Shown here: in pieces, positions 10,658-38,349 of the stretch | Layout of the letters: the number at the start of each line of letters is the position of its first letter | Position numbering within the stretch: the first letter of the stretch is position 1 | Assembly (NCBI RefSeq): GCF_900113085.1 | Contig: NZ_FOOC01000007.1 | Coordinates: 62,001-126,000, forward strand | Source: Fontimonas thermophila | GTDB lineage: Bacteria > Pseudomonadota > Gammaproteobacteria > Nevskiales > Nevskiaceae | Length of the DNA stretch: 64,000 nucleotides | Reading direction: 5' to 3' | Translations under genes and position numbers: made by a program | Notes under the pieces: model-generated | What the model saw: only the letters and a program-made list of their open reading frames with translations | Told to the model about the DNA's origin: nothing | The model's database searches: none

Positions 10658-12196
10658 TCAGTCGAGCGGCGTCCAGCTACCATCCGGTGTGCGCATCTGG
10701 AAGCGGTTGCCGACGCGCATGACGACGGTGCCCTCGTTTTCCGCAACCGGCTCGGTCGTCGGCAGGCCGGCGAGCTGCGGCCCCAGCCGGCCGCCACTGG
10801 CATAAGGATTGTCGGCGAGCAGGCGGGACAGCAGCTCGAACAGGCCCAGATAACTCATCGGCTGATCGACGATTTGCTGGGGTGCGGGCGCATCCGAGCC
10901 GCCGAGCAGCGCAAGGCCGGCCGGCACATGCGTGATCGCCCAGGTCGGGATCTCGCGCAGGCCGGACATCTGACGGCGGTCGCCGCGCAGCGCAGCGCCG
11001 TGCTCGGGGATGAACACGATGACGACACGGCGGCCGGACTGCGCGACCAGGTCGAAGAAGCGGTTGAGATCGTCGAGCAGGCTCCGCAGCCGCCGGGCGT
11101 AGCTGTCGTTGACGTCGCGGGGGCGGTAGCCCTCGATGCGGTTGCCGTCGTGCAGACTGGCGCCGTTGTAGAACAGGGCGACGCGTTCGGCCGGCATACG
11201 CAGGCGTTTCTCCCACCAGTGCGCAAGCACATCGAAGTCGCTCAGAATCGGCAAGCCGTCGAAGGCGCGCTGCGTCACCTGCGCCGCCGGATCGAGCTGT
11301 ATGGTCGCAGCGACGCCGAGATTGCGCGCGACATCGCCGCGGAAGTCGCCGAAGACGCCGTTGTGGTTCATCTCCCAGTGGATTGCAAAGCCGAGCCGTT
11401 CGAGCTGCCGGAACACCTGGCATTCCGGCTGCGGCGGGTCATACAGCGCCGCGTGACGGGGCTGGCCACAGGCCCCACGCAACACGCGGATCGCCGCCGG
11501 GCCGCTGTAACTCGCCGCGGTGTTGAACTCCGTCATCAGCACGTTCAAGCGCTGAATCAGCCGGTCATCGGTCATGCCGACGAGCTTCATGTCATCCCAG
11601 GCCAAGGAGCACAGGTGTAGCACCACGATGTCGAACGCCGGGCCGCTGACGGTGCCCGGAAAGACCACGCGGCGATTCGCCTCGCTGGCGAAGAAGGTAT
11701 TGAGGCGCGCGGTCAAGGTCTCGCGCGTGAGCGTCTGTACGGGTTCCGCAGCGGTTCCGGCGACGACGGTGGGAGGGTGGAGCAGGGCCTGCGCCAGTGG
11801 CACCAGTGGCGTGGTCAGCATCCCGATCAGCGCAATGGTGCTCATGCGCAGCCGGTGGGCGAGCAACAGCCACAGCAGCACGACAACGGCCGTGCCACCG
11901 AGTATGGCCGGATTGATCAGACGCACGACCAGTTCGAGCAGGTAGTCCCAGGAAAACGCAGCCAGATTTCTGCTGCTTTCGAGCAGGCGCGTAAACGGCG
12001 GGAAATGGCTCTGGCGGTAGAGCAGGGCGATGGCTGCCGGTACGGCGATGCACAGCCGGGCGATCCGCAACACGCGCATCTGCAGCGGCCAGGCTACGAG
12101 CGCGAACAGCACGAGATTCGGCCACAGTTCGAAACGGATGCTGCCGCTGTAGAACAGGAACAGCGCAATCAGGAAATAGCAGCTCCAGAATCCCAT
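10658..12196 (-). CDS. bcsG: Cellulose phosphoethanolamine transferase BcsG
   Basis: 512 residues. BcsG transfers phosphoethanolamine from phosphatidylethanolamine to cellulose on the periplasmic face of the inner membrane. Four or five N-terminal membrane segments (about residues 5-130) precede a periplasmic alkaline-phosphatase-fold domain. The catalytic set known from E. coli (Cys243, Ser278, His396, Glu442-His443, from memory) can be matched by spacing: Cys196 (LHLCSLAW), nucleophile Ser231 (YSGPAAIR, 35 residues on, as in E. coli), His349 (153 residues on, also as in E. coli) and Glu398-His399 (FIPEHGAALRGDR). The enzyme therefore looks active, so the product is probably pEtN-cellulose. 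Last gene of the bcsR-E-F-Q-A-G arm, 12 bases after bcsA. Confidence 0.95.
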   Translation of the reverse strand: MGFWSCYFLIALFLFYSGSIRFELWPNLVLFALVAWPLQMRVLRIARLCIAVPAAIALLYRQSHFPPFTRLLESSRNLAAFSWDYLLELVVRLINPAILGGTAVVVLLWLLLAHRLRMSTIALIGMLTTPLVPLAQALLHPPTVVAGTAAEPVQTLTRETLTARLNTFFASEANRRVVFPGTVSGPAFDIVVLHLCSLAWDDMKLVGMTDDRLIQRLNVLMTEFNTAASYSGPAAIRVLRGACGQPRHAALYDPPQPECQVFRQLERLGFAIHWEMNHNGVFGDFRGDVARNLGVAATIQLDPAAQVTQRAFDGLPILSDFDVLAHWWEKRLRMPAERVALFYNGASLHDGNRIEGYRPRDVNDSYARRLRSLLDDLNRFFDLVAQSGRRVVIVFIPEHGAALRGDRRQMSGLREIPTWAITHVPAGLALLGGSDAPAPQQIVDQPMSYLGLFELLSRLLADNPYASGGRLGPQLAGLPTTEPVAENEGTVVMRVGNRFQMRTPDGSWTPLD

Positions 12197-12208
12197 GGCG
12201 CGTAGTGC

Positions 12209-14746
12209 TCAGACGGTAGTGGGGCGGAAGAGGAAGCGCAGGGGCGGTAGCAGATCGATCAACACGCCGGCGCCATTGCGCAGCAGCCGCGTGTATGCCC
12301 CCGCGCCGAAGCGCAGCACCTCGATCAGGCTGGCCAATGGGCGGTCGTCGGGCGTGGCGTCGTTCCAGCCGAGCCAAGCGTCGGCGCGGCCGAAGGTGCA
12401 GGCGATCAACGTGCGCTCCTGATCGAGGGTGAGCGGCGCAAAACGCAGGCCGATCCGACGGCCGCGCTGGGCGGCGATCCGCGCCGGGAACACGTGCTCG
12501 CGCGTCCCGTCGTTCAGCCCAACCCCCAGATCCTGATCGCGCGGAATCGGAATGTTTTCCGCAAGCGCGAGTCCCAGACCTTTGATCGCGTAGTCTTCGG
12601 TGCGGCAGGCGAGGGCGCGGCCGTCGGGCAGGTACAGCGTGGCCGGAATGCGCAGTGGCACGCGATGGGCGGTGCGCACCTGGCGGGTTTCCGCCGCCAC
12701 GCCGAGGGCCGCGCCGAGCATGATCAGGTTGTACACGGCCCAGGCGAGGTTCATCAGCACGGTGCCGGGCTCATCGGTGTTCCACCAGAACAGGCGCACG
12801 ATGCCGAGTGCAAGACCGATCAGGTTGGCGGTCGCGAGCAGCGTATAAGGCAGGGCGATGCGCCAGTCGAAGTAGTCGCGCTCGACCAGCCCGCCCTTGG
12901 CGGTGACGTTGAACGTGCCGGCGCGCGGATTGATCAGGGCGAGCGTCGTCGGCCAGGCGATGTACCAGGCCAGCACCGTCTCGTAGGCCTCGGCCCAGAA
13001 CGAGTGCCGGTAGCGGCCCTGCATGCGCGAGTTGGCGATGCCGGCCTGGAACAGGTGCGGCAGAACGTAGACCGCAATCGTCGTCGCGGCCGCGTTGATC
13101 ACGTGCAGCTCGGCATACAGATAGGCCAGCGGTGCGGTCAGGAACACCAGCCGCGGCAGGCCATGGAAGAAATGCAGCATCGCGTTGGCATAGCACAGTC
13201 GTTGCAGCAGGCTCAGCCCGCGGCCAAACAGCGGATTGTCGAGTCTGAAGATCTGCGCCATGCCGCGTGCCCAGCGGATGCGTTGGCCGATGTGCCCGGA
13301 CAGGCTCTCGGTGGCCAGCCCCGCCGCCTGGGTGAGCTTGAGGTAGGCGGTGTTCCAGCCGCGCCGGTGCAGCTTGAGTGCGGTATGCGCATCTTCGGTC
13401 ACGGTTTCGACGGCGATGCCACCGATCTCCATCAGCGGTGCGCGCCGCAGCACCGCGCAGGAACCACAGAAAAAGGTCGCATTCCACAGGTCGTTGCCGT
13501 CCTGGACCAGACCGTAGAACAGGCTGCCCTCGTTCGGTACCCGGCGGAAAGTGCCGAGGTTGCGCTCGAACGGATCCGGTGAGAAGAAGTGGTGCGGTGT
13601 CTGCACCATCGCCAGCTTGGGGTCCTGGAGAAACCAGCCGACCGTGGCTTGCAGAAACGAGCGCACCGGCATGTGGTCGCAGTCGAAGATCGCGACCAGC
13701 TCACCGTCGGTCTTGCCCAGCGCGTGGTTGAGATTGCCAGCCTTGGCGTGTGCATTGTCGGGCCGGGTCATGTAGCGCGCGCCGCAGGCCTGTGCGAATT
13801 CGCGCATTGCTTCGCGCCGGCCATCGTCGAGGATGTAGACGCGCAGCTTGTCCGCCGGCCAGTCCATGTTCAGCGCGGCCAGCACGGTCGGTCGCACGAC
13901 ATGCAGAGGTTCGTTGTAGGTCGGGATGAATACATCCACGGTCGGCCACAGTCTGGGGTCGGCCGGTAGCGGCGCAGGCTTGCGGCCGAGCGGCCAGGCA
14001 TTCTGGATATAGCCGAGCACGAGGATCAGCCAGGTATAGCATTCCGCGGCGATCAGCCCCATGCCGAAGAACCATTCCAAACCGGGCTCCAGATCCAGCG
14101 TGGAGGTCAGCCGCCACCAGATGTAGCGGCTCGATGCGGCGAGCGAGAAGCAGACGAGGATCAGGGTCGCGGCATTGCCGGGCAGGCGGCGGATCACCAG
14201 TGCGCTGATCCACATCAGCAGAAACAGGGCGAGCTGCTCGTGCGGAGCAAGAGGCGTGGTTGCACACAGGGCGAGCAGCACGGCCGTGATCACGGCCACA
14301 GTGATGCCGACCGGCCGCGGCATTTTGCGGAGGCGTTCGGCCGCCGCGGTCAGCACTGCATCGGCGCGCCGGAAATCTTGACGGTCGAGCCAGCGCTCGA
14401 ACCACCACAGTGGCAGCAGTAGTGTGCGTAGGAGGGTCGCGCCGGCTTTGGCGACAACCATCAGCACCCGCAGCAGATAAATGCGCGCGGCCAGACCGTC
14501 TGCGGCAGGCAGCGGCGCCTGTTTGAGCAGCAGCGCGCGCACCCAGTTGCGCAGCGTCCACGGCATCTGCACGCCGAGTGCCTGCGCAAGCCAGTGCAGC
14601 GGGGGCGTCAGCACCGCCTGGAGCCATGCGGGTAGCGGGCGCGCCTGCGTCGGCGGCAGCAGGAACAAGGCCCGCAACCACGTGCGCCAGCCAGCGCCAG
14701 GCTCGATGCCGAGCGCATCTGCGCAACGCCGCAGGACGGAGTTCAT
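12209..14746 (-). CDS. bcsA: Cellulose synthase catalytic subunit BcsA (UDP-forming, PilZ domain)
   Basis: 845 residues. Inner-membrane GT2 enzyme that polymerises glucose from UDP-glucose and extrudes the chain, activated by c-di-GMP. Visible: N-terminal extension and membrane helices; GT core with FIPTYNEP, LDDGRREAM, FDCDHMP (DxD), FFCGSCAVLRR, TVTEDAHTALKLHRRGW (TED) and QRIRWARG (QxxRW); gating loop FNVTAKG; further helices; then a PilZ domain from roughly residue 690. The PilZ RxxxR (RTAHR) is present, but the second motif reads DYAIKG, with Ala where DxSxxG has Ser. The start at 14746 is fixed by the ATGA overlap with the bcsQ stop; an upstream in-frame ATG at 14785 lies within bcsQ. 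About 870 residues is usual for E. coli-type BcsA. Confidence 0.97.
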   Translation of the reverse strand: MNSVLRRCADALGIEPGAGWRTWLRALFLLPPTQARPLPAWLQAVLTPPLHWLAQALGVQMPWTLRNWVRALLLKQAPLPAADGLAARIYLLRVLMVVAKAGATLLRTLLLPLWWFERWLDRQDFRRADAVLTAAAERLRKMPRPVGITVAVITAVLLALCATTPLAPHEQLALFLLMWISALVIRRLPGNAATLILVCFSLAASSRYIWWRLTSTLDLEPGLEWFFGMGLIAAECYTWLILVLGYIQNAWPLGRKPAPLPADPRLWPTVDVFIPTYNEPLHVVRPTVLAALNMDWPADKLRVYILDDGRREAMREFAQACGARYMTRPDNAHAKAGNLNHALGKTDGELVAIFDCDHMPVRSFLQATVGWFLQDPKLAMVQTPHHFFSPDPFERNLGTFRRVPNEGSLFYGLVQDGNDLWNATFFCGSCAVLRRAPLMEIGGIAVETVTEDAHTALKLHRRGWNTAYLKLTQAAGLATESLSGHIGQRIRWARGMAQIFRLDNPLFGRGLSLLQRLCYANAMLHFFHGLPRLVFLTAPLAYLYAELHVINAAATTIAVYVLPHLFQAGIANSRMQGRYRHSFWAEAYETVLAWYIAWPTTLALINPRAGTFNVTAKGGLVERDYFDWRIALPYTLLATANLIGLALGIVRLFWWNTDEPGTVLMNLAWAVYNLIMLGAALGVAAETRQVRTAHRVPLRIPATLYLPDGRALACRTEDYAIKGLGLALAENIPIPRDQDLGVGLNDGTREHVFPARIAAQRGRRIGLRFAPLTLDQERTLIACTFGRADAWLGWNDATPDDRPLASLIEVLRFGAGAYTRLLRNGAGVLIDLLPPLRFLFRPTTV

Positions 14747-15474
14747 GGGTGCGCCTCGTCGATCGTGCGCAGCAGCCAGCTGCACAGATACTGCAAATCC
14801 TCCGCCGCCTGGCTGTAGGGTGCATCGTCGAGCAACGCGCGGTTACGCGCCAAGGCCTCGGCCACCGCGGCATCGCGGTGCACGACGCTGCGCACAAGGC
14901 CGACGCCCAGCCGTTCGCGCAACAGCAGCAGTACGTCCTGTTGCACGGTGCGCTGCGGCTCGAAGGCGTTGACTACATAGTGCGCGCGTGCGGCGCCAGG
15001 TGTGGGCAAGCGGTCGAGCGCGGCATAGGCCACCGGTTCGGCCACGAGCACGGTCAAGACGTGATCGGCCGTGGCCGCTGCGTGCCAGGCGAGCGGCGAC
15101 GGCAGGCGGGGGGTATCGACCAGCACGACCGTATCGTCGGCCAGCGCGGCCTCGTCCAGGCGGCTGCGCAGCCAGTTCGCATGTGTGACGAGCTGCTGTT
15201 CGAAGTGCAGCAGTGCCGATGGATCGAGGATCCCGAACGGTACGACGCGCACCCCTTCGGAATTGGCCAGTGCGGTGCGCGTCCAGTCGTCGGTGGTGGC
15301 GATACCGTGCGCCGGCTGCGTTTCGGCGCCGAGCTGCTGGGCGAGCAGATTCGCCGGATCGAAATCGACGGCGAGCACGGGCCGGCCGCGCCGGTGCAGG
15401 GCATCGGCCAGACCGGCGACCAGCGTGCTGCGGCCGCAGCCGCCGCTGGTGGAGACGAGGCTTACGACGACGAT
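14743..15474 (-). CDS. bcsQ: BcsQ, MinD/ParA-like ATPase of the cellulose secretion complex (probable ATC start)
   Basis: About 243 residues from the proposed start. In E. coli, BcsQ forms a complex with BcsR that supports BcsA and polar localisation of synthesis. Visible: beta1-P-loop (VVVSLVSTSGGCGRSTL), VLAVDFDPANLLAQQLG (switch region), VVLVDTPRLPSPLAW (Walker B-like) and VVHRDAAVAEALARN near the end. The P-loop is deviant: the MinD-type signature Lys is Ser and the core Lys is Arg. No ATG, GTG or TTG occurs in frame between BcsE and the P-loop. An ATC at 15474 has GGGAG seven bases upstream and lines up with Met1 of E. coli BcsQ (recalled from memory), so it is my choice. The gene overlaps bcsF by 13 bases and bcsA by ATGA. 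Confidence 0.85.
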   Translation of the reverse strand: MVVVSLVSTSGGCGRSTLVAGLADALHRRGRPVLAVDFDPANLLAQQLGAETQPAHGIATTDDWTRTALANSEGVRVVPFGILDPSALLHFEQQLVTHANWLRSRLDEAALADDTVVLVDTPRLPSPLAWHAAATADHVLTVLVAEPVAYAALDRLPTPGAARAHYVVNAFEPQRTVQQDVLLLLRERLGVGLVRSVVHRDAAVAEALARNRALLDDAPYSQAAEDLQYLCSWLLRTIDEAHP

Positions 15475-15698
15475 GGCGGTGCTCCCGGAGGATGGGGATG
15501 GTCGGATGGCGGTGCCGGTTTGCGCTCGGTGGGCACATAGGGTGCCAGAAGCACCGGTCGCCAGGCCCGTCCGAGCAGGTAGCGTCGCAACCGGCGCAAG
15601 CGCGGGTGCCAGCGTCTGGGCCGCACCACGGCATGCACGGCAAGGCCGCCGGCGAGGCCGCAGAGCAGACCGAGCAGGGCCAGCAGTGCCGGGCTCAT
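15462..15698 (-). CDS. bcsF: BcsF-like small membrane protein of the cellulose complex
   Basis: 78 residues. Position (directly after bcsE) and architecture match E. coli BcsF (63 residues), which anchors BcsE at the inner membrane. One N-terminal helix (ALLALLGLLCGLAGGLAVHAV) is followed by a basic stretch (RPRRWHPRLRRLRRYLL) and a proline-rich cytoplasmic tail with APYVPTERKPAPP. Sequence identity to E. coli BcsF looks low, so the call rests mainly on synteny and topology. The ATG overlaps the bcsE stop (ATGA). The tail is longer than in E. coli, and its last codons overlap the start of bcsQ, which suggests translational coupling. Confidence 0.75.
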   Translation of the reverse strand: MSPALLALLGLLCGLAGGLAVHAVVRPRRWHPRLRRLRRYLLGRAWRPVLLAPYVPTERKPAPPSDHPHPPGAPPSSS

Positions 15699-17263
15699 GC
15701 GGATGCCGTCTTGCGCGGCAGCGGGGCCGGCTGCACGGCACGGATCGCCGGTGAAACCGGTGCCGCAGCGGTAGCGGTGTCGATGGGCGGCGGTTGTGCT
15801 GCGCGGGCGACGAGGGTATCGAGTGCGGCGAGGATTGCCGCCGGCTCGGTGTAGCGGATCTCGTCGTCGAACAGGGTTTCGATGGGGCAGGACAAGACAT
15901 GCGCCAGCGCCTCATCGACGTGTTCCGGCCAGCAGGCGTACAAGAACAGGTGCAAGGCGTCAGGCTCGACACAGAACAGGTCGCCGTTGCGCACTGGGCG
16001 GCAGCACGCGCGGGCCTCGTCGGGACCGGTGCCGGGGGCGAAGCGCAAACTGATCAGCGCGCAGGCCAGCCCGGCCGCCTCGGCCTGTTGCGTCAGCGCG
16101 CACACTTGTTCGGCGAACGCCACGACACGCCGTTCCCCGCCGACGGCTGGCGGCAGCGCGCTGCGCAGCGCATTTTCGAAATCCACATCCAGGGGGCGCG
16201 TGAACGGCTGTTCGCGATGGGCAGCGACGACGTCGGGCGCGTGCTCGTCGGCGCCGATGATGGCATTGGCACCCAGGGTCAGCAGCATTTGCGCCTGGCC
16301 GATGCGCAGACGGTAGCCGCATTCACGCACGAACAGCCGTACCCCGCGACCGCAGCGCTGACGCAGGCGGTGGAGGCGCCGCGCCAGCGGTCGCAGTGCC
16401 TGGGCATCGTCGATTGCGAAAATGCAGCTCGCGGCGATTGCGTTTGCGGCAGCGTCCTCGACCGCGGCCGCGTCGACGAGCACCTGCCAGTGCGGTGCGG
16501 CACCGTACGCCGCGCGCGCATCGACGTAGACGTGCTCGCGGTCTGGCGCTTCGCGGATGCGCCGGCGCCAGTGCTCGGTTTCGGCCACTGGATCCGGCGG
16601 GCAGATGAGCCGGCCCGGACCGACGGTCTGCATGCGCAGCAGATGCGATCCGCGGGCGGCGTCAAAGCCGGCCCAATGCCGGGTTTCCCAGCCGGCGTCG
16701 CGGCGGTCGCCGTGGATCAGGGCGAGTCCGGCGAGTGCCGGGGCATGTGCCGCGAGCCGCTGCGCATGCGCCTCACCATCCGTATGCTCGCCCAGCACCA
16801 GCACCAGGCAGGAACGGCACATGCGCGCCCAGCCGTGGTAGAGCCGGACGAAACCGGCCAGCGCCCTTGGCGGATCCCAGCGCAGCGCATCGTTGGCGGG
16901 TGACAGCCAGACCATCGTATCGCTGGCGCAGCCAAAGGCGTCGAGCTCATCGAGCAGCTGCGCCGGCCCCAACCGTGCGGCGCGTGCGCTCTGCGCCGTC
17001 CAGCCGAACAGGCACAGACTCCCGCGGCGGTGGGCGCGTACTGCGTCGATGCCGCCGCGGGTCAGCGCCGCCGCCGTCGCCGCCGGGTCGCGGGTCACCA
17101 GGGCGATCCGGCGCTTTTCCGCCAGCGCCGAGCGGGCGGCGCACACGGCGAGATCCTGGGCCAGATCTGCGTCGGCGACGGACAGGGCATAAAGCTTGCC
17201 GGTCTGCAGCACGCCGAGCGGATCCGGCAGGCCGTCGATATCGATCCGGCACAGCCGCGTCAT
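15695..17263 (-). CDS. bcsE: c-di-GMP-binding cellulose biosynthesis protein BcsE
   Basis: 522 residues. BcsE is a cytoplasmic c-di-GMP receptor (GIL domain) that boosts cellulose output by binding BcsF and the BcsRQ complex. The N-terminal half resembles a degenerate RecA/P-loop fold (KLYALSVADADLAQDLAVCAA, RRIALVTRDPAATAAAL). The c-di-GMP motif RxGD is intact as Arg425-Asn-Gly-Asp428 (RPVRNGDLFC), close to the E. coli positions 415-418. The C-terminal ~40 residues are a low-complexity Ala/Pro tail. The start at ATG 17263 lies in an ATGA overlap with the bcsR stop; an in-frame upstream start at 17323 would run into bcsR. Followed by bcsF with another ATGA overlap. Confidence 0.92.
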   Translation of the reverse strand: MTRLCRIDIDGLPDPLGVLQTGKLYALSVADADLAQDLAVCAARSALAEKRRIALVTRDPAATAAALTRGGIDAVRAHRRGSLCLFGWTAQSARAARLGPAQLLDELDAFGCASDTMVWLSPANDALRWDPPRALAGFVRLYHGWARMCRSCLVLVLGEHTDGEAHAQRLAAHAPALAGLALIHGDRRDAGWETRHWAGFDAARGSHLLRMQTVGPGRLICPPDPVAETEHWRRRIREAPDREHVYVDARAAYGAAPHWQVLVDAAAVEDAAANAIAASCIFAIDDAQALRPLARRLHRLRQRCGRGVRLFVRECGYRLRIGQAQMLLTLGANAIIGADEHAPDVVAAHREQPFTRPLDVDFENALRSALPPAVGGERRVVAFAEQVCALTQQAEAAGLACALISLRFAPGTGPDEARACCRPVRNGDLFCVEPDALHLFLYACWPEHVDEALAHVLSCPIETLFDDEIRYTEPAAILAALDTLVARAAQPPPIDTATAAAPVSPAIRAVQPAPLPRKTASA

Positions 17264-26751: not shown

Positions 26752-27804
26752 ATGTTCTTTTCGCACCCTCGCCGTATCACCTTGCCGCGGCCGGCTGGAT
26801 CCGCCCGTCGCTGGGCCACGCCCGCTGCCATCACTGCGCGCGGCGTGCGCGTGACCGACATCCGGCGCGAAACCGACGATGCGGTGACACTCACACTCGC
26901 GACCGAAGACGGCCGGCCGTTGCCATTTCGTGCCGGGCAGTATCTCACGCACTGTTTCAACATCGACGGCGCCGAGGTACGGCGCGCCTACAGCCTGAGC
27001 GTCGCCGAAGGCGAACCGCCGGCCTGCACAGTGAAGCTATTGCCGGGCGGTCTGGTTTCGCAGTACGTCGTAACCAGGCTCAAGATTGGCGCGCGTTACC
27101 GCGTACTCGGCCCGAGTGGCGATTTCGTGCTGACGCCCGGCGAACGTGGGCCGCTGGTCATGCTCGCGGCTGGCAGTGGCATCACGCCGATCATCAGCCT
27201 GATCGAGACCGCGCTGCGCGCCGATCCGCAGCGGCGGGTGCGCTTGCTCTACATCAACCGCGATCCGGCCCGCACACTGTTCGATGCGCGTTTGCGCGCA
27301 GCGCAGGCGCGCTACCCGCGTTTTGAGTGGACGCCCTGGTACACCGCGAGCGCAGGGCGTCCCGATGCCGCGCGCCTGGCCGAACTGCTGCAGCCCGAGA
27401 TCGATGCGCAGATCTATCTGTGCGGCCCACAGCCGCTGATGGACGCAGCTACGGCAGGTTTGCGCGCGGCTGGCGTCGCGGCGGCGCGCATCCGGCGCGA
27501 ACGCTTCATCCCCGCGCCGCGCCACCAGCAGCGGCCGACGGCGCCGGTGGAAATCCGCTTCCTGCGCTCCGGCAGGACCATCGTGCAACGGCCGGGTGAG
27601 TCGATCCTCGAAGCCGGGCTGCGTGCCGGGCTCGCGCTCCCGTTCAGTTGCACCGTCGGCGGATGCGGCCATTGCCGTGTACGGATCCGCGACGGCGAGG
27701 TGTGCCTCGACGAGCCCAACTGCCTGTCTGCCGACGAGCGCGCAGCCGGCTGGACGCTGGCCTGCTCGGCCTGTGCCCTGACACCACTGACCGTCGACGC
27801 CTGA
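26752..27804 (+). CDS. Flavin/2Fe-2S oxidoreductase (ferredoxin reductase plus C-terminal ferredoxin)
   Basis: 350 residues. NAD(P)H-dependent electron-transfer protein of the PaaE/KshB/hybrid-cluster-reductase type. Domain order: FAD-binding barrel with RAYSLSVAEG (RxYS motif), NAD-binding domain with LAAGSGITPIISLIE and LCGPQPLMDAA, then a plant-type ferredoxin with Cys300, Cys305 and Cys308 (CTVGGCGHC) and Cys338. All four iron-sulfur ligands are present. GAGGAG precedes ATG 26752 by about seven bases. The diiron protein starts 14 bases downstream behind a perfect Shine-Dalgarno, so this is very probably its dedicated reductase. Confidence 0.93.
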   Translation: MFFSHPRRITLPRPAGSARRWATPAAITARGVRVTDIRRETDDAVTLTLATEDGRPLPFRAGQYLTHCFNIDGAEVRRAYSLSVAEGEPPACTVKLLPGGLVSQYVVTRLKIGARYRVLGPSGDFVLTPGERGPLVMLAAGSGITPIISLIETALRADPQRRVRLLYINRDPARTLFDARLRAAQARYPRFEWTPWYTASAGRPDAARLAELLQPEIDAQIYLCGPQPLMDAATAGLRAAGVAAARIRRERFIPAPRHQQRPTAPVEIRFLRSGRTIVQRPGESILEAGLRAGLALPFSCTVGGCGHCRVRIRDGEVCLDEPNCLSADERAAGWTLACSACALTPLTVDA

Positions 27805-27818
27805 AAGGAGGTGTTGCC

Positions 27819-29027
27819 ATGACCACCCTCGATCGCATGCTCCAAGGCCTGCCACGCAAGGCGCAGAACACGATCTACAGCAGTTTCGATACCCTGCGCA
27901 TGATGGGCTCCGTTGGCAATCTCAAGGTTGCCGCCTCGATGGCGCCATCGGCATTCCGCGGACTGGTGCTCGGCACGGCGCGCGAGGGTGATGCCGTGCA
28001 GATGCCGGGTCACCATGCAGCGCATTACACGCTCACTTATGGCGATGAGTTTCCCGAGATGTACGACTTGTACCGCCGCGCCGTCGCCAACCAGTGGAAT
28101 GGCGATCGCGATCTCGACTGGTCCATCGACGTCGATCCGGAGAATCCGGAAACGGCGGTGATGCCGCTCGACTACCCGCCGTTCGAAGGGCTCGAGGCCA
28201 AGGGCATCAGACTCAATGCCAAGGAAAAGCTGCGTTTTGCCAACGACGTCGCGGCATGGACGCTGTCGCAGTTCATGCATGGCGAGCAAGGCGCGCTGTA
28301 TGCGGCGGCGCAGGTCACCGAGTCGGTGCAGTGGCTGGACGGCAAGTTTTATGGTGCCACCCAGGTCATGGACGAAGGCCGCCATCTCGAGGTGTTCCTG
28401 CGTTATCTCGACACCAAGCTGCAGAAGGTTTACACGATCAACGACAACCTGTTCGTGATCCTCGACGACCTGCTCACCGACGGCCGCTGGGACGTCAAAT
28501 TCCTCGGCATGCAGATCATGGTCGAAGGTCTGGCGCTGGGGGCATTCGGCACCATGTACAACTTCACCCGGGAGCCGTTGCTCAAGCAATTGCTCAAATA
28601 TGTGATCCAGGACGAGGCGCGGCACGTGCACTACGGCGTGCTCGCCCTGCGCGAGCACATCAGCAAGGCGCTGTCACCGGCCGAGGTGCGCGAGCGCGAA
28701 GACTGGGCCTACGAGGTCGCGCTGCTCATGCGCAACCGCTTTCTCTCACACGAGATTTACTACGAGTGGTTCGAAGGCCGGCTGTCGCTCAAGGACTGGG
28801 ACGAGATCATCCTCAATGCGCGGTCGATGTCGGCCTTCCGCCATCTCATGTTCATGCGCCTGATCCCCAACCTGGAATACATCGGACTGATGAGCGAGCG
28901 CATCAAGGCGCACTATGCCAAAGCCGGGCTGACCAGCTTTCTGGGCGGCAAGAACGCCACGCAGCTTTCGGCCGAGGATTTACTCCGGGATATTTCAGAC
29001 TACAAAGCGCCGCCAGCGGTGCATTGA
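27819..29027 (+). CDS. Ferritin-like diiron protein, putative oxygenase or desaturase
   Basis: 402 residues. Two E-x-x-H motifs in helical context, Glu186-His189 (DEGRH) and Glu266-His269 (DEARH), with further candidate ligands Glu156 (MHGEQGALY) and Glu236 (MVEGLALG), make a carboxylate-bridged diiron site of the ribonucleotide-reductase/desaturase type. The rest is helical, soluble, without signal peptide. AAGGAGGTG lies six bases before ATG 27819, a very strong ribosome site. Paired with the upstream 2Fe-2S reductase, it probably activates O2 to hydroxylate or desaturate a lipid-like substrate; the substrate is unknown. It is not a bacterial multicomponent monooxygenase alpha subunit by length or neighbours. 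Confidence 0.85.
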   Translation: MTTLDRMLQGLPRKAQNTIYSSFDTLRMMGSVGNLKVAASMAPSAFRGLVLGTAREGDAVQMPGHHAAHYTLTYGDEFPEMYDLYRRAVANQWNGDRDLDWSIDVDPENPETAVMPLDYPPFEGLEAKGIRLNAKEKLRFANDVAAWTLSQFMHGEQGALYAAAQVTESVQWLDGKFYGATQVMDEGRHLEVFLRYLDTKLQKVYTINDNLFVILDDLLTDGRWDVKFLGMQIMVEGLALGAFGTMYNFTREPLLKQLLKYVIQDEARHVHYGVLALREHISKALSPAEVREREDWAYEVALLMRNRFLSHEIYYEWFEGRLSLKDWDEIILNARSMSAFRHLMFMRLIPNLEYIGLMSERIKAHYAKAGLTSFLGGKNATQLSAEDLLRDISDYKAPPAVH

Positions 29028-29065: not shown

Positions 29066-30523
29066 CTATTCGAGCCATAAGCGTCCGTCGGAGTACACGC
29101 GGCCATTGGCGGCCAGTCCGGTATCGCCGTTACGAATCTCGCGGTGCACGTGACGTGGCGGCGAGAGCACCACGTCGCGCCCTTTTTCAAAACGTTGAGC
29201 TCGAACCAGCACCAGATAAGCTTTGTTAAGCGCAATCGCCCGTTCCCGGCTGGGGGCCAGCAGCCAGTGTAGATCGCGGTCACCACCGATTGCGGCACGG
29301 CGCACGGCGGCTCGATTGAGTCGGCCGCCGATGAAAAAGCGCTCGAGCATCTCTGTGTTGCTGCGGAATTCATCCCCGCCGCCGGCCCGCTCGAGCCAGG
29401 TCAGCACCTCGCCTTGGCGATGACCGGCTTGAGGGCGATCCTGCTGTCCGCGCAGGGTTTGCAGAGCGAAGCCAGCATCGCCCGGTAGTTTGCGGGGAAA
29501 AGCGAAGCTTGAATCGACCGTGACACCGATGCCGCCGTGGCAGCCCATGCACCAGGTGGTTTCCTCCCGGGTTTGGGGTCGCAGCGCACCCGCCTTGTCC
29601 TCGATCCAGCCCTGGTAAACCCAGCCAAACGCATTCATCAGGCCACGCTCGGCATCGCCGTGGAACGCTGGCACCCAGCCGAGGATTTTTTCCTCGCGGT
29701 CGTGCTGATAGGCAATCGCAATTTGTGTCGTGTCGGGATTCTGTAGCTTGCGGCTGTAGCGCAGCTCCTTTAGGCGCGCGCTGCGCAGATCCTGCGCATC
29801 GACGTCGATATAGCGCACGCTATGCAAAAACTCGGTGCCGAGCGGGTAGCGCCAGCGATGAACGGGGATGTTGCGTGCTGCGCCCTCGTAGTATGCGGGC
29901 AGAGCGACTTCCCGGGTATCAGGCACGTTCATTGCCTGCTCCAAGATGGCGTAATTGCGTTTGAGCACGGCACGCGAAGCGCGGCCCTTCTCATCCTGAC
30001 CGAAGAGTGCTGGCAAGCGGATGAACACGTCATCGGTATTGCCATTGGTCGGCCAGAACACGCCGGGGAAAGGTTGATAACGCAGTGCCCGCCAGCCAGA
30101 GCCGTCGCGGGCGAAGCCGTCTTCGTCAAAGCCTTTGGAAAAATCCAGATCGGGTCGATAACCAGGTCCCGGAGAGGAATTCCTCAACAGATGGGTGTAA
30201 TTGTCTTGACGGATCCAGGAAATAATTTCTTCGTCACTGATCGCTGCAATTGCGTTGCGAAGATCACGGAACAGATTGTCCCAGTGGTTATGGCTACCCG
30301 CGGGAGAAAAGGCGTAGGCACGCTGGAGTACCCAGTCGCCTTTGTGATTGAGGCCATTGCGGCTGGTGTGACAGGCCCAGCAGGGGTTGTGGAGACCATC
30401 GGTCGCGGTATAACACTGCGCCGGGATGGTGGGTTCTGGGTTATGAAAATCTTCTGTTCCGACCGGTTGCTGGGCTGGCAGACACAGTGGCCAGAGCAGC
30501 AACCCCGCGAGTGTATGTCTCAT
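29066..30523 (-). CDS. Exported diheme c-type cytochrome of unknown role
   Basis: 485 residues. The signal peptide is residues 1-18 (HTLAGLLLWPLCLPAQ). There are two c-type heme sites: CWACH (Cys48-His52) in the first 60 residues and CMGCH near residue 310. Between them is a long unfamiliar domain with YTHLLRNSSPGPGYRPDLDF, FPGVFWPTNGNTDDVFIRLP and HRWRYPLGTEFLHSVRYIDV. The spacing is unlike CcmH, cbb3 or SoxAX cytochromes. Last gene of a three-gene overlapping operon: its ATG is in an ATGA overlap with the preceding stop. Base composition is visibly more AT-rich than the flanks. A periplasmic redox enzyme is the best guess. Confidence 0.82.
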   Translation of the reverse strand: MRHTLAGLLLWPLCLPAQQPVGTEDFHNPEPTIPAQCYTATDGLHNPCWACHTSRNGLNHKGDWVLQRAYAFSPAGSHNHWDNLFRDLRNAIAAISDEEIISWIRQDNYTHLLRNSSPGPGYRPDLDFSKGFDEDGFARDGSGWRALRYQPFPGVFWPTNGNTDDVFIRLPALFGQDEKGRASRAVLKRNYAILEQAMNVPDTREVALPAYYEGAARNIPVHRWRYPLGTEFLHSVRYIDVDAQDLRSARLKELRYSRKLQNPDTTQIAIAYQHDREEKILGWVPAFHGDAERGLMNAFGWVYQGWIEDKAGALRPQTREETTWCMGCHGGIGVTVDSSFAFPRKLPGDAGFALQTLRGQQDRPQAGHRQGEVLTWLERAGGGDEFRSNTEMLERFFIGGRLNRAAVRRAAIGGDRDLHWLLAPSRERAIALNKAYLVLVRAQRFEKGRDVVLSPPRHVHREIRNGDTGLAANGRVYSDGRLWLE

Positions 30524-31023
30524 TGGGCCCTGAGAGATTCCAGCGCGTGGCGCCAGACGGCGCGCTTGGCTTCGAATCGAGCAGGGCTGGAAAGCGCCGA
30601 TGCGGTCAACATATGACTGCCCGCATCAAGAATCAGCACATGACCCATGAGCTCGCGCGGACCCTCGGTGTACCGGACGGTGAATAAGCCAGCGGGCCGG
30701 CCACCCAGTGTGAGCTCTTCATACCCGAGCTTGGCAAAACGCTCGCTGTGATAAGCAAGCTGTTCCAGTTTGCGGTAACTAAAACCTTCCAGACAGGTGC
30801 GTTGCAGATTGATCGCTTCGCGGGTGACGGTCAAAAGATCCATACCCCAGCCTTCTGCATCCACTGTCCGGTCCGGTCTGGCGATCAACGCCACCCCCAT
30901 GCGGTCGCGTTGATAAGTCCAGTCAGCTGGCAGATCGATGCGGAAACCATCGCCCAGCACGGTCGAAGCTTGTGCAAGCGGACTGAGCAAGGCGAGTACG
31001 ATCGCAAATCGCCACACGCTCAT
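30520..31023 (-). CDS. Exported PsbP/DcrB-like small protein
   Basis: 167 residues. A signal peptide (WRFAIVLALLSPLAQA) precedes VLGDGFRIDLPADWTYQRD, the opening typical of PsbP/DcrB (DUF1795-like) folds, then GMDLLTVTREAINLQRTCLE and AGLFTVRYTEGPRELMGHVL, ending in an amphipathic helix (AKRAVWRHALESL). The fold assignment is by pattern and is tentative. It is translationally coupled on both sides (ATGA overlaps with the phosphatase-like gene upstream and the cytochrome downstream), so the three products probably act together in the periplasm. Confidence 0.7.
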   Translation of the reverse strand: MSVWRFAIVLALLSPLAQASTVLGDGFRIDLPADWTYQRDRMGVALIARPDRTVDAEGWGMDLLTVTREAINLQRTCLEGFSYRKLEQLAYHSERFAKLGYEELTLGGRPAGLFTVRYTEGPRELMGHVLILDAGSHMLTASALSSPARFEAKRAVWRHALESLRAQ

Positions 31024-32174
31024 GGCTGACGCGCGAACGTTCGTTCGAAGTCGGCTCTCGGACTGCCGTCAGGATGAGTCTCGAGCTTGAGCGTATTCGA
31101 ATCGACGATGTAGGCGGCTCCTGTCATCTCCTCTTCGCGGAATTCGAACCAGAAGAACGCCAGGACATTTGCTTTCTGGTAGTAAACCGGGTTGCGGTTG
31201 GCGTCACCGAAACCACGCGGCTGTTCGGCAGTGCCTGAGATGATGAACTGCGTTTTGTCGTTGCAGCTCGCCGTGGGGGTGAGCCATTCAATATGGTGGT
31301 CATGCCCCGCCATGAAGAAATCAAGTCCCATTGCGCATGCGGAATCTTCGAGAAATTCCTTCCACGGTCTGCCATTGCTGGTTCCCGGCAGATTGGGATC
31401 GACGCCGTCATAGTTGCCGGCATTGCCATGCAGACCATTGCTGATGTAGGGGTGATGGGCAAAGGCAATTTTCCAGCGCGCCCGGCTGTTCATCAGCCCC
31501 TGCTGGAACCACTGCAACTGCGTCGGTCCATAGGTGAGATGACTCCAGCGCGGATCGGGATCGGCCACGATCGAGGTGAGTGGGCTGGAATCCAGGCTGA
31601 AGAATTCCACGAGCGGCTCGCCGGCGACAGGCGGAAGCGCCGGATAGCCCGCCGGGATATTGATGACAAAGTCATTGCCCTGGCTCGACAGCGGTGCTGT
31701 GAAGCGGTAGTAGCGCGCCGGCATGTTCCATTTTTTGCTGACATTCTCGGCGGCACTGTGATAGGCGACCTGCACATTACCGCGACTGTTTGCCGAACCC
31801 TCTCCAGGGCCCTGACTATTGTCATGGTTGCCCAGTGTCGCAAACACCGGGATCTTGAGGGCAGCATACGGCTGTTCGAACTTGGTCTGCCACTGAGAAT
31901 CAGCCGTACTGGTCACCCCCGAAAGATAGAAGTTGTCACCGAGTTCTAGTGCAAAGTCACAGCCGCGGGCGGCGCACACCTCGGCCATGGCCTCTCCCAC
32001 AGCGGTTTGCACCGTCGGGCCGCCTTGTGTGGCCTGTCCGGCGTCGCCAAACGCGACGAAGCGAACCACCCGGGATTGTCCATGAGTCGCCGAAGCAAGA
32101 CTCAGCGGCGCGCTATCTCCGCATGCCGTCACGGTGAGGACCGCTGGCAAAGACAAAAGCAATACAGAACGCAT
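31020..32174 (-). CDS. Purple-acid-phosphatase-like metallophosphoesterase, lipoprotein
   Basis: 384 residues. The signal ends in a lipobox (TVTAC, Cys18), so the protein is probably membrane-anchored outside the cytoplasm. The calcineurin-like metal motifs are in order: Asp44 (FGDAG), Asp80 with the purple-phosphatase Tyr83 (GDNFY), Asn116-His117 (GNHD), HHPYIS and GHDHH. The GDxxFY spacing and GHDHH resemble small tartrate-resistant acid phosphatases rather than cyclic-nucleotide phosphodiesterases. Substrate is probably a phosphomonoester. First gene of the operon with the PsbP-like protein and diheme cytochrome. The start has no strong ribosome site. Confidence 0.88.
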   Translation of the reverse strand: MRSVLLLSLPAVLTVTACGDSAPLSLASATHGQSRVVRFVAFGDAGQATQGGPTVQTAVGEAMAEVCAARGCDFALELGDNFYLSGVTSTADSQWQTKFEQPYAALKIPVFATLGNHDNSQGPGEGSANSRGNVQVAYHSAAENVSKKWNMPARYYRFTAPLSSQGNDFVINIPAGYPALPPVAGEPLVEFFSLDSSPLTSIVADPDPRWSHLTYGPTQLQWFQQGLMNSRARWKIAFAHHPYISNGLHGNAGNYDGVDPNLPGTSNGRPWKEFLEDSACAMGLDFFMAGHDHHIEWLTPTASCNDKTQFIISGTAEQPRGFGDANRNPVYYQKANVLAFFWFEFREEEMTGAAYIVDSNTLKLETHPDGSPRADFERTFARQP

Positions 32175-32278
32175 GGTTAAGCCCAGACCGGCCGGAACTC
32201 AATACACCAGCGAAAATTTGCGCCATGAAAATGACGTTTCCATGAAACGCGACTCAATTCGGCTACTCTATGGGATCA

Positions 32279-34340
<2,062 letters not shown>

Positions 34341-34680: not shown

Positions 34681-37600
34681 ATGATGACAAGTCGGAACCG
34701 TGGTGGCGCCTACTGGCGTCGCGGGATGGGTTGGGTGGCGATGGCCACGCTGGGGGTGCTGGCCGGTGCCGCTGGGTTGTCGGCGCAGGCCGGGGTCGGT
34801 GTGCGCACGGCCGTGGTCGGGACCAAGGCGTGGAATAGCCCGGCACAGGGTGGCAACGGCGACTATGTCTTCATCGATGCGCCGGCGGCGCAGACCCACG
34901 TCAGCGGCATCACCACGGTCAGTGGTCGCGCCGGGCGCAGCGACGGCGATCCGAATGGCGGCACGGCTGCGGGTTATGACCGTAAGCCGCAAGTCGTCAT
35001 CGCGATGATCGATACCGGGGCCAACCCGTATCACGTCGATTTCCGCGACCCGGAACGCCTGGTGTCGCCGGCGACTTATCTGACCGGCTTTCCGTCCACT
35101 GCCAAGGCCGCGCCGCTGTGCTTCATCGACGATCTCGGCGGTGGTCGCTACCGCTACCGCGACGACTGCAGCGGATCCTGGCAGGCCAATGTGGTGGCCG
35201 ACGGTGCGGTCGTCAATGCCATCGCCGAAGGCGATCTGGTGTGGTATCCGGGCACGCGGATCATGACCAAGAGCTTCGCGCACACGGATACGAATTCGCC
35301 GGTTGGATTCGATCAAGGCGGCGGCGACAGCGGCACCAGTCACGGGAGCTGGGTGTCCAGTGCCGCAGTCGGCAATACGTTTGGGACTTGTCCGGACTGT
35401 CTGCTGATCGCTCTCGAGGCCGATACCGTCGATGCCATCGAGGCGGCCTACCAATGGGCGGCACAGCAGCCGTGGATCGACGTCATCACCTCGAGCATCT
35501 CGATCGGCATTCTCGGTGTGGGCGTCAACACCGGTTTGTTCCCGGCGCAGCATGACGGTGCAGTGGCCGCCAGCCGCAACGGCAAGCTGTTTCTGAGCGC
35601 TGCCGGTAACGGTGCGGCCAACTTCGGACTGGTGCCGACCTCGACCTTCCTGCTCGACAGCGGCAGTCCTGCGGTGATCCCTGTGGGTGCTTCCTTCGAC
35701 GACGGTTTGGCGACCCACTGGAGCGACTTCCCGGCCGAGATCATGGCCAACGGTTCGAGCCGCAGGGTCGCCGACACGGCCAGCATGAGCGGTGAGATCA
35801 CCGTCAGCGGGACCAGTTTCAGTTCGCCGGCCGCCGCCGGCGTGCTCGCGCACAGCCTGCTTGAGGCGCGCCGTGCGTGCAACGACACCGAGGAAGGCGC
35901 ATCGGTCGCGGCCGGCGATGCCCTGACCCTGCTGCGCAATCGGGGTTGCACCGTCACCGCAGGCCCCTTTGCCGACGGCATCCTCACGCGCGACGAGCTG
36001 CACGAGGCTTTCGTCAAGAACGCGGTACCGCCGTATGCGCAACTGTCGCCGGTGCCGGGTCCGGTGGGGTGGGTCAAGAATGCTTATGGCTATGTGGATC
36101 TCGGCAATGGATTGCGCAATGGCGGTGCGACGATCCAACCCTTCGTCACGGCCAGCATCCTGGGGACACGTCCCGTGCCGGTGCGTTCGCTCGAACAGTT
36201 CTGGTACGACGGCGTCGTGCGCGAGGCGCAGAGCGCGATCTGGGGACCGCGCCCGACCGTGGACGGCGACGGTGACGGCTTTCCACGCGACGATGGCGCC
36301 TGCATGCCGGTGTGCGCGCCGGCAGAGTTGCAGCGCTATGCCGGCGGCCTGCTGGGGCTGGACGAGACATCCAGCTTCCAGAGTCTGCTCGATTTGCTCG
36401 GGGTGAATGCCGCGACCTTCATGGCAGCGGGGACTTCCGATTTCAACCGCTTTGCCGAACGTGGCGAGCGGGTGGCCGGAGTCGCCGGCGAAGTCGGTGC
36501 GATCCGCCTCTCCAATGACGCCACGCATCTGACGGTGAGGCTGGCGCTGTCCGGCATGCTCGATGGTCTGGTGCCTACCGTACGCAGCAACCCGATTTCC
36601 TACGAAGTCACATTCACGACCGCACACAACGGAACGCAGAACTACCGCCTGGCCTACGAATTCGAGGCGGCCGACGTGCTCGCCCTGCTCGAAGGACGGA
36701 TACCAACCCCGCTGACCGACAAGTTCCAGATCTTCGTCGATTCAGCGCCGAATGCGCAGGGGTTGTCGTCGATTTGTCCGATCGATACGGATCTGTCGGC
36801 CAGTACCTTCGATGTCGATACGAATGAGGCGGTCTGGGTGATCCCGTTATCGGCGTTCAATCATGACAACCGCCCGACCGACTGTGCGGCTTTCACGCGC
36901 GGCGGCCGTGCCTTGGCCGGCGGCGACATCGTGCGCGACATCCAGGCATCGGCCGTGCTCACGGTGGGCATTATCAACTTCGGAGACGGGCTGGGCTTTT
37001 TTGGAACCAGTGAGGCCGATGACTACATGTTGACCTCATCCGGTCCGGGCGATGCCGATGGCGACGGTGTCCCCGACGCGTCGGATCGCTGCCCGGCAAC
37101 GCCGCCCGGAACGCCGGTCGATGCCGAGGGCTGCCCGCTGGGCTCGGGGAGCAGCGTCAGTCTGCGCGTCAACGGTGTCGATGCCGGGCAGGCCGGTGTG
37201 ATCGATGGACACTGGAGCCGCGACATCGATTTCTCGCAGTTCACGCCGGTCAACGGCGAATACGTCGTCGAGGCGCGCTTTGGGACCGCAACCGATACCG
37301 TGGTTTTGCGTGACGCATCGGCCCCGGGCGCGCTGCGCGTGACGCTGACGGCGTCGTATTCGAAGGCGGCGAACGCGGACGGGACGTACACGGTCAGTGA
37401 GTCTGATCCGCTGGAGGTGACGCTGAGCGCGGTGGCGTCTGGAGGTCCCGGGTCTGGCTATCGCTACACGTTTTATTTTGGGGACAACAGCTACGCGGGA
37501 CCGCAGGCGGAAGCGACGGCGACGCATCTTTACCGATACGGGAACGTGGATGGTTACCGCGTGAAGGTGGTGGTGACGGATGCGGACGCGACGCAGAGCG

Positions 37601-38349
37601 CGGTATCGGAGGAGATTGTGATTCGCACGGTGTCGCCGGTGGTGGTGAACGGTGGCACGGTGATGGACCTGGTGGTGACGCCGACGAGCGGGACGGCGCC
37701 GTTGACGGTGACGGTGGATGCGAACGGCCCGGACGCATCACACGACGTGGCGACGGCGAGCACGGTGTACCGGTTTGATTTTGGCGACGGCACGGTGGTG
37801 GAGAACACGACTGGCCGTACGAGCCACGTGTACACACGTCCGGAGCAATCCGTTTACACGATCACGGCGACGATGACGGACCTGGATGCGTCGGGGAACG
37901 AGCTGGGGACATCGACGGCGACGGCGATGGTGGCGGTGAACTCTGGCAACACGCTGACGGCGCTTTTGGCGGTGCGGCCGACGCTGGTGCGGATTGGGGA
38001 TCCGGTGACGTTTGATGGGTGTGCATCGTTTGCCCCGGACGGTGAGACGATCGTGCGTTATGTCTTCGATCCGGATGGGGCGGGTCCGTTGCCCGCGGTG
38101 GACCGTGGCGGTGAGTGCACGTTCGAGTACGCCTATACGGCTGCGGGGACATACACGCCGACGCTGACGGTGACGGACAGTGCGGGTGCGACGGCCAAGG
38201 CGGCGGCGCGCGGTGTGGAAGTACGTCCTGGTGTGGAGAGTGGCAGCCGTCGCAAGGGCGGCGGCGCATTGGGCCTGATGGCGGCGATGACGCTGTTGCT
38301 GTTCGCGGCGGCCCGCCGACGCCATGCCGGTGGGCAAGGGCCATTCTGA
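34681..38349 (+). CDS. Exported subtilisin-like (S8) protease with PKD-like domains and GlyGly-CTERM-like tail
   Basis: About 1222 residues. Signal helix (GWVAMATLGVLAGAAGLSAQA), then an S8 domain with Asp111 (VVIAMIDTGANPYHVDF), His221 (GTSHGSWV), oxyanion Asn310 (SAAGN) and Ser379 (GTSFSSPAAAG). Next is a beta-rich region, one thrombospondin type-3-like calcium repeat (DADGDGVPDASDRCP), and three PKD-like repeats (YTFYFGDNSYAG, YRFDFGDGTVVEN, VRYVFDPDGAG). The C-terminus is Gly-rich, then a hydrophobic helix and Arg cluster (GGGALGLMAAMTLLLFAAARRR), like rhombosortase-processed GlyGly-CTERM signals. GGAGGGGG precedes ATG 34681; ATG 34684 is also possible. From about 37320 on, codon use shifts strongly to ACG/GTG/GCG. 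The stop lies in a tandem duplication. Confidence 0.92.
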   Translation: MMTSRNRGGAYWRRGMGWVAMATLGVLAGAAGLSAQAGVGVRTAVVGTKAWNSPAQGGNGDYVFIDAPAAQTHVSGITTVSGRAGRSDGDPNGGTAAGYDRKPQVVIAMIDTGANPYHVDFRDPERLVSPATYLTGFPSTAKAAPLCFIDDLGGGRYRYRDDCSGSWQANVVADGAVVNAIAEGDLVWYPGTRIMTKSFAHTDTNSPVGFDQGGGDSGTSHGSWVSSAAVGNTFGTCPDCLLIALEADTVDAIEAAYQWAAQQPWIDVITSSISIGILGVGVNTGLFPAQHDGAVAASRNGKLFLSAAGNGAANFGLVPTSTFLLDSGSPAVIPVGASFDDGLATHWSDFPAEIMANGSSRRVADTASMSGEITVSGTSFSSPAAAGVLAHSLLEARRACNDTEEGASVAAGDALTLLRNRGCTVTAGPFADGILTRDELHEAFVKNAVPPYAQLSPVPGPVGWVKNAYGYVDLGNGLRNGGATIQPFVTASILGTRPVPVRSLEQFWYDGVVREAQSAIWGPRPTVDGDGDGFPRDDGACMPVCAPAELQRYAGGLLGLDETSSFQSLLDLLGVNAATFMAAGTSDFNRFAERGERVAGVAGEVGAIRLSNDATHLTVRLALSGMLDGLVPTVRSNPISYEVTFTTAHNGTQNYRLAYEFEAADVLALLEGRIPTPLTDKFQIFVDSAPNAQGLSSICPIDTDLSASTFDVDTNEAVWVIPLSAFNHDNRPTDCAAFTRGGRALAGGDIVRDIQASAVLTVGIINFGDGLGFFGTSEADDYMLTSSGPGDADGDGVPDASDRCPATPPGTPVDAEGCPLGSGSSVSLRVNGVDAGQAGVIDGHWSRDIDFSQFTPVNGEYVVEARFGTATDTVVLRDASAPGALRVTLTASYSKAANADGTYTVSESDPLEVTLSAVASGGPGSGYRYTFYFGDNSYAGPQAEATATHLYRYGNVDGYRVKVVVTDADATQSAVSEEIVIRTVSPVVVNGGTVMDLVVTPTSGTAPLTVTVDANGPDASHDVATASTVYRFDFGDGTVVENTTGRTSHVYTRPEQSVYTITATMTDLDASGNELGTSTATAMVAVNSGNTLTALLAVRPTLVRIGDPVTFDGCASFAPDGETIVRYVFDPDGAGPLPAVDRGGECTFEYAYTAAGTYTPTLTVTDSAGATAKAAARGVEVRPGVESGSRRKGGGALGLMAAMTLLLFAAARRRHAGGQGPF

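Follow-up and report, generated by a model that had tools for sequence, protein, structure and literature searches.

A diheme cytochrome of the P460/c'-beta type encoded beside exchangeable secreted phosphatases in Fontimonas thermophila and its relatives

What might a diheme cytochrome be doing in one operon with a secreted phosphatase? The question is raised by a 64,000-nucleotide stretch of the Fontimonas thermophila genome (the window), whose minus strand carries three exported genes in the order purple-acid-phosphatase (PAP)-like lipoprotein, PsbP/DcrB-like protein, diheme cytochrome. Gene 1 (31020..32174) encodes 384 aa with the lipobox TVTAC, gene 2 (30520..31023) an exported protein of 167 aa with a predicted PsbP/DcrB fold, and gene 3 (29066..30523) a cytochrome of 485 aa with two CxxCH motifs. 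Genes 1 and 2 and genes 2 and 3 are joined by 4-bp ATGA overlaps, at 31020..31023 and 30520..30523 respectively (minus strand). The initial annotation of this DNA had proposed these three exported reading frames with their overlaps, which were found exactly at the positions it gave, and had named their families, for which PAP matches, a PsbP/DcrB-like model and the two CxxCH motifs of the cytochrome now provide support. It had not recognized the combination, and no matching system was found in the libraries and papers that we searched.

The operon also has the lower GC content relative to its flanks that had been remarked on at the outset, at 0.595 compared with a window mean of 0.663, which places it in the bottom 2% among 3.1-kb windows. 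The GC3 of its three genes (0.625-0.67) is the lowest among the 37 genes compared, codon statistics being computed on window genes only. Several other features of the window deserve mention. On the plus strand, positions 26752-29027 encode an FAD/NAD/2Fe-2S reductase and, after it, a protein with weak similarity to the ribonucleotide reductase small chain; a second genome of the genus (G005) has homologues of both near thiC, with their order unchanged. Positions 34726-38349 (plus strand) encode a large S8 subtilase, exported and containing PKD domains (Pfam), the C-terminus of which (GGG, a hydrophobic stretch, RRR) resembles by eye a GlyGly-CTERM sorting tail. Further away, at 6057-17263, genes for a GH8 glycosidase and for a PilZ-domain glycosyltransferase of the cellulose-synthase type probably belong to a bacterial cellulose cluster.

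The product of gene 1 is expected to be an active binuclear phosphatase, because it has the metal-ligand motifs of that family, the GDNFY tyrosine among them, and their ligand positions are invariant across six relatives. It matches purple acid phosphatases/TRAP5 in the PDB (8e-16) and Metallophos in Pfam (3e-9), and its GDAG, GDNFY, GNHD, AHHP and GHDHH motifs together make up the PAP binuclear-site pattern (DxG, GDxxY, GNH(D/E), H, GHxH). PAP/TRAP proteins of known structure (PDB 1qhw, 1ute, 2bq8) have the same metal-ligand motifs, again including the GDNFY tyrosine. Unlike these, the product of gene 1 is a bacterial lipoprotein encoded in an operon with a cytochrome.

For gene 2, the AlphaFold model (pLDDT 87) indicates a PsbP/DcrB fold, in keeping with the first guess at its family: the best Foldseek matches are PsbP/CyanoP at about 1e-8, followed by DcrB at 7e-6, with a probability of 1.00. 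At the sequence level the Pfam DcrB model (PF08786) is matched at an E-value of 2e-4 and 21.9 bits, below its curated cut-off of 27.2. The protein differs from known members of this fold in being only 11-17% identical to them and in having no photosystem or phage context. Among the loci read, proteins of this type were seen only alongside PAP-type operons, and two genomes (G019 and G030) have two copies each, one behind each of two phosphatases.

The cytochrome is the least familiar of the three proteins, and it matched no family above a curated cut-off. Both of its CxxCH motifs, CWACH at residues 48-52 (30368..30382, minus strand) and CMGCH at residues 325-329 (29537..29551, minus strand), are invariant in 38 of 38 relatives. 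Outside these motifs the only invariant histidine is H234 (codon 29822..29824, minus strand) and the sole invariant cysteine is C37 (codon 30413..30415, minus strand), while no methionine beyond the start codon is kept in at least 34 of the 38 members. Since there is thus no invariant methionine and only one invariant non-proximal histidine, at least one of the hemes may, judging from these alignments, be without a conserved His/Met sixth ligand. A lipobox-like motif occurs in 35 of 47 relatives and is missing from the window protein, as is an EF-hand-like DxDxDG insertion that most relatives have before the YPLGT-type motif; this insertion accounts for the calmodulin matches of the family profile against the PDB, which were discarded. 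A diheme cytochrome c peroxidase/MauG identity was likewise rejected, since the Pfam matches of the 38 members at E <=0.5 do not include that family.

Several comparisons place the middle of the protein (residues 115-350; 29474..30181, minus strand) with the P460/c'-beta heme proteins. In the AlphaFold model (pLDDT 91, pTM 0.90) this region has, at moderate scores, the five-stranded antiparallel beta-sheet heme fold of that superfamily (PF16694; PDB 6hiu, 9hrk, 2je2, 7s5o, 7ead). All 11 entries listed by VIA-align were P460 or c'-beta proteins, with moderate Z-scores of 4.2-5.5 (the best, 5.5, covers 133 residues at an rmsd of 3.3). Foldseek ranked proteins of the same kind in its first four places, with weak E-values of 0.13 or more. 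PF16694 itself scores 16.2 bits on the window cytochrome, under its curated cut-off of 27, and weakly matches 29 of the 38 members at E <=0.5 (best 1.5e-5). An alignment of the cytochrome profile with 15 P460-family proteins by hhalign gave an E-value of 6e-5 (probability 65%), whereas family profile searches of the PDB returned P460 matches only weakly, at 0.2-1.1. The initial annotation had been correct about the length and the two CxxCH motifs; what it called an unfamiliar middle domain is resolved, together with the second CxxCH, as a heme domain of the P460/c'-beta type.

The profile-profile alignment sets YPLGT of the cytochrome opposite FPDGT of the P460 family, and an ungapped extension brings H234 of YPLGTEFLH onto the lysine of WPDGAILVK, which is K78 of Methylococcus capsulatus P460, the position of the residue that forms the heme cross-link in cytochrome P460 (PMC11928373). 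Because this position is histidine in all 38 members, in place of the cross-linking lysine of P460 or the Phe/Met of c'-beta, we do not file the protein as a strict cytochrome P460 and regard it instead as a branch with two hemes within the broader P460/c'-beta superfamily. It shares with that superfamily the C-terminal CxxCH, the YPxGT motif, and a GW before and a DxxF after the heme motif, and differs from it by an added N-terminal CxxCH region, a C-terminal extension of about 135 residues, and its linkage to phosphatases. The same genome also encodes, at a separate locus (L103, G000:C24:9936-10319), a small protein of the P460 family (113.6 bits) with a single heme, which by eye has Phe, not Lys, at the cross-link position.

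How regular is the association of this cytochrome with phosphatases? A peptide-pattern scan of genome contigs yielded three relatives, namely a PAP-DcrB-cytochrome arrangement in a Nevskiales MAG and PhoX-cytochrome pairs in Archangium and Paraliomyxa, and a genome-wide homologue search yielded many more. The cytochrome was found in 32 of the 146 genomes searched among relatives, several of which have more than one copy, and in eight of 398 genomes of an even phylum sample, the window's own genome counted; no phage record with it was found. We read 57 loci, in genomes that are mostly relatives of one family, of which 54 could be assessed once two at contig ends and one decayed copy were set aside. 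The decayed copy (L069, G014:C7, 6825-7495) consists of three fragments spanning residues 203-485, with an internal stop. A same-strand phosphatase lies directly upstream of the cytochrome in 38 of the 54 loci, against a base rate for phosphatases of about 0.2% of genes (a rough estimate from PhoX, PhoD, PF04185 and PhoA hit counts and genome sizes). The upstream partners are PhoX (20 loci), a small PF04185 lipoprotein (15) and PAP (5), with PF04185 and PAP together in two loci, and they represent three unrelated folds. PhoX (PF05787) and the PF04185 acid phosphatase/phospholipase C thus stand in the place that PAP has in the window operon, from which both are absent.

Seven further assessable loci have a convergent neighbour instead, PAP in one and a CehA/McbA-type metallohydrolase (NF038032) in six; no recognized phosphatase neighbour was seen in the remaining nine, among them L068, where the upstream gene matches Porin_O_P. 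The six metallohydrolase loci (L031, L032, L036, L039, L045, L054) have cytochromes that branch close together, and this enzyme may be a further functional partner. The co-occurrence that had been suggested as a check on the operon does exist, and the gene set is no chance grouping: four other genomes (G004, G019, G030, G042) also have PAP and DcrB-like genes ahead of the cytochrome, which accompanies other phosphatases in dozens of loci. PhoX-cytochrome pairs are found in other families as well and in Pseudoalteromonas, where the pair of P. xiamenensis is annotated as 'alkaline phosphatase PhoX' and 'hypothetical protein' (WP_308363490.1).

The pairing is selective with respect to both the kind of phosphatase and the copy. 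Zn-type PhoA adjoins the cytochrome in none of the 12 cases in which these genomes encode it, and for PhoD, with about 100 genes, a single locus shows such adjacency. Across the same genomes, PhoX, PAP and PF04185 genes mostly have no cytochrome neighbour, and the PhoX copies that do belong mostly to a low-scoring subclass, as do the linked small PF04185 lipoproteins. At one locus (L056, G029:C119) two PhoD genes directly follow a PF04185-cytochrome pair. We found no description of a phosphatase-cytochrome pairing in the open-access literature searched.

A quick maximum-likelihood tree of 56 cytochromes, to be read with its midpoint root, SH-aLRT support only and over-representation of one family in mind, shows that partners follow the descent of the cytochrome: the partner labels require 10 changes, compared with 32 when shuffled. 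The PhoX-linked cytochromes occupy deeper branches, and the PAP-linked ones, including that of the window, form one group of six (support 99). The simplest reading is that PhoX and the cytochrome were paired early on and that PAP or PF04185 later took the place of PhoX.

Upstream of the operon, 74 bp ahead of the PAP start, is a Pho-box-like direct repeat, GTTTCATGGAAACGTCAT (32231..32248, minus strand), and the orthologous operon of G042 has ATTTCATGGGACTGTCAT at the same distance (-74). Across 46 operons, the best coding-strand Pho-box-like site scored higher with an E. coli-like matrix than in 202 control promoters (Mann-Whitney p 9e-5), and coding-strand sites of these operons scored above those of the opposite strand (p 0.01), an excess that the controls do not show. 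Some of the top-scoring control promoters themselves belong to phosphatase genes (PhoD in L056, PAP in L038); one PhoD gene of L056 is preceded by the highest-scoring site among all controls. The genome also encodes PhoB (338.6 bits against a curated cut-off of 296.2).

Our preferred reading, to which we give about an even chance, is that the operon is a phosphate-starvation (PhoB-controlled) module of the cell envelope, in which the cytochrome carries out a redox step alongside an interchangeable phosphatase. Low phosphate would induce the operon through PhoB, the exported phosphatase would release phosphate from organic esters, and the N-terminal heme of the cytochrome would relay electrons to or from a reactive P460-type heme. 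The redox step would belong to the same scavenging pathway, with the pool of substrates a more probable target than the phosphatase itself. Since it is the cytochrome that is retained and the phosphatase fold that varies, a step in a common pathway is likelier than service to one phosphatase; a step directed at the substrate would let lineages exchange the fold (PhoX, PAP, PF04185) and keep the cytochrome. Against this reading count the nine assessable loci in which no phosphatase neighbour was recognized, the moderate scores of the fold match, the statistical nature of the Pho-box evidence with its E. coli-like matrix, and a genome sample drawn mostly from relatives of one family. A candidate reaction is the reductive release of iron-bound organophosphate; phosphate-limited bacteria have been reported to secrete iron chelators, by hypothesis freeing phosphate from iron minerals (PMC5348524). 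More speculatively, the cytochrome might oxidize a reduced phosphorus compound. Any contact between the proteins of the operon is likewise putative, and the broader proposal that these cytochromes constitute a family of redox enzymes dedicated to acquiring phosphorus, in which a diheme enzyme of the P460 type is functionally coupled to an exchangeable secreted phosphatase, is advanced only tentatively.

Could the cytochrome instead serve its partner, by maintaining the phosphatase's iron centre at the active valence or by aiding its assembly? The metal centre of PAP is Fe(III)-M(II), the cofactor of PhoX contains iron and calcium, and PhoD is also an Fe/Ca enzyme. The tight coupling of the genes, the intact metal ligands of the PAP, the lack of any cytochrome beside Zn-type PhoA and the iron requirement of PhoX (PMC5454538, PMC8812569) would all fit such a helper; however, a single heme protein would then need to serve three unrelated folds, the PhoX, PAP and PF04185 genes of these genomes mostly do without it, and PhoD, an iron enzyme too, has it as a neighbour just once in about 100 genes. 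A common denominator of iron phosphatases was considered and retained only as part of this alternative, as it fits PAP and PhoX but neither the near-absence of PhoD from these loci nor the PF04185 enzymes, which are not established as iron enzymes and whose plant relative NPC4 was unaffected by EDTA (PMC9837106). We consider this role rather unlikely. Mere co-regulation, with a respiratory, gas-binding or peroxide-handling cytochrome that has its promoter in common with the phosphatase and acts in a separate pathway, is unlikely: it would accommodate the loci that have no phosphatase neighbour and the properties of c'-beta relatives, which bind NO and CO and one of which has peroxidase-like activity (PMC11928373), but the neighbour is specifically a phosphatase, mostly of three kinds and repeatedly so after replacement, instead of assorted Pho genes, and PhoD and PhoA, though abundant, are almost never adjacent.

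The base composition had led the initial annotation to suggest acquisition by transfer, which the comparison with other genomes does not support. The PAP gene is divergent from thiC (32418..34340, plus strand), a flanking gene that lies outside the system and marks a common genomic site. The same arrangement is found in the window's genome (G000) and in G019, G030 and G042, all of one family, in G058, which belongs to a different family of the order, and probably in G061, where a contig break intervenes; in G021 a PF04185 gene takes the place of PAP beside thiC. Because this arrangement recurs across the order, the thiC-PAP site is old, and the orthologous PAP operons are not GC-poor (GC delta -0.01 to +0.03). 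That the three genes are a recently transferred cassette joined by chance is therefore very improbable, in spite of the lowest GC3 among the window genes compared and the other genes that same-genus G005 has between homologous flanks, since the common thiC site and the native GC of orthologues speak against a recent transfer having brought the genes together, and the closest group of the window cytochrome on the tree consists of PAP-linked proteins from its own family. An allele of lower GC may have replaced the original one at this site, or loss may have occurred, given the different gene content of G005 between these flanks; transfer is not needed to account for the combination of genes.

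What is new here is a branch of the P460/c'-beta superfamily that has two hemes and is linked to phosphatases. A group familiar from nitrogen chemistry and from the binding of gases is thereby extended to a diheme form in which a histidine takes the cross-link position. The label 'hypothetical protein' in public records makes the pairing of phosphatase and cytochrome easy to overlook. The usual picture of phosphate scavenging contains no heme redox proteins, and the retention of this cytochrome beside secreted phosphatases through replacement of their fold suggests that a redox step has been missed in how organic phosphorus is used.
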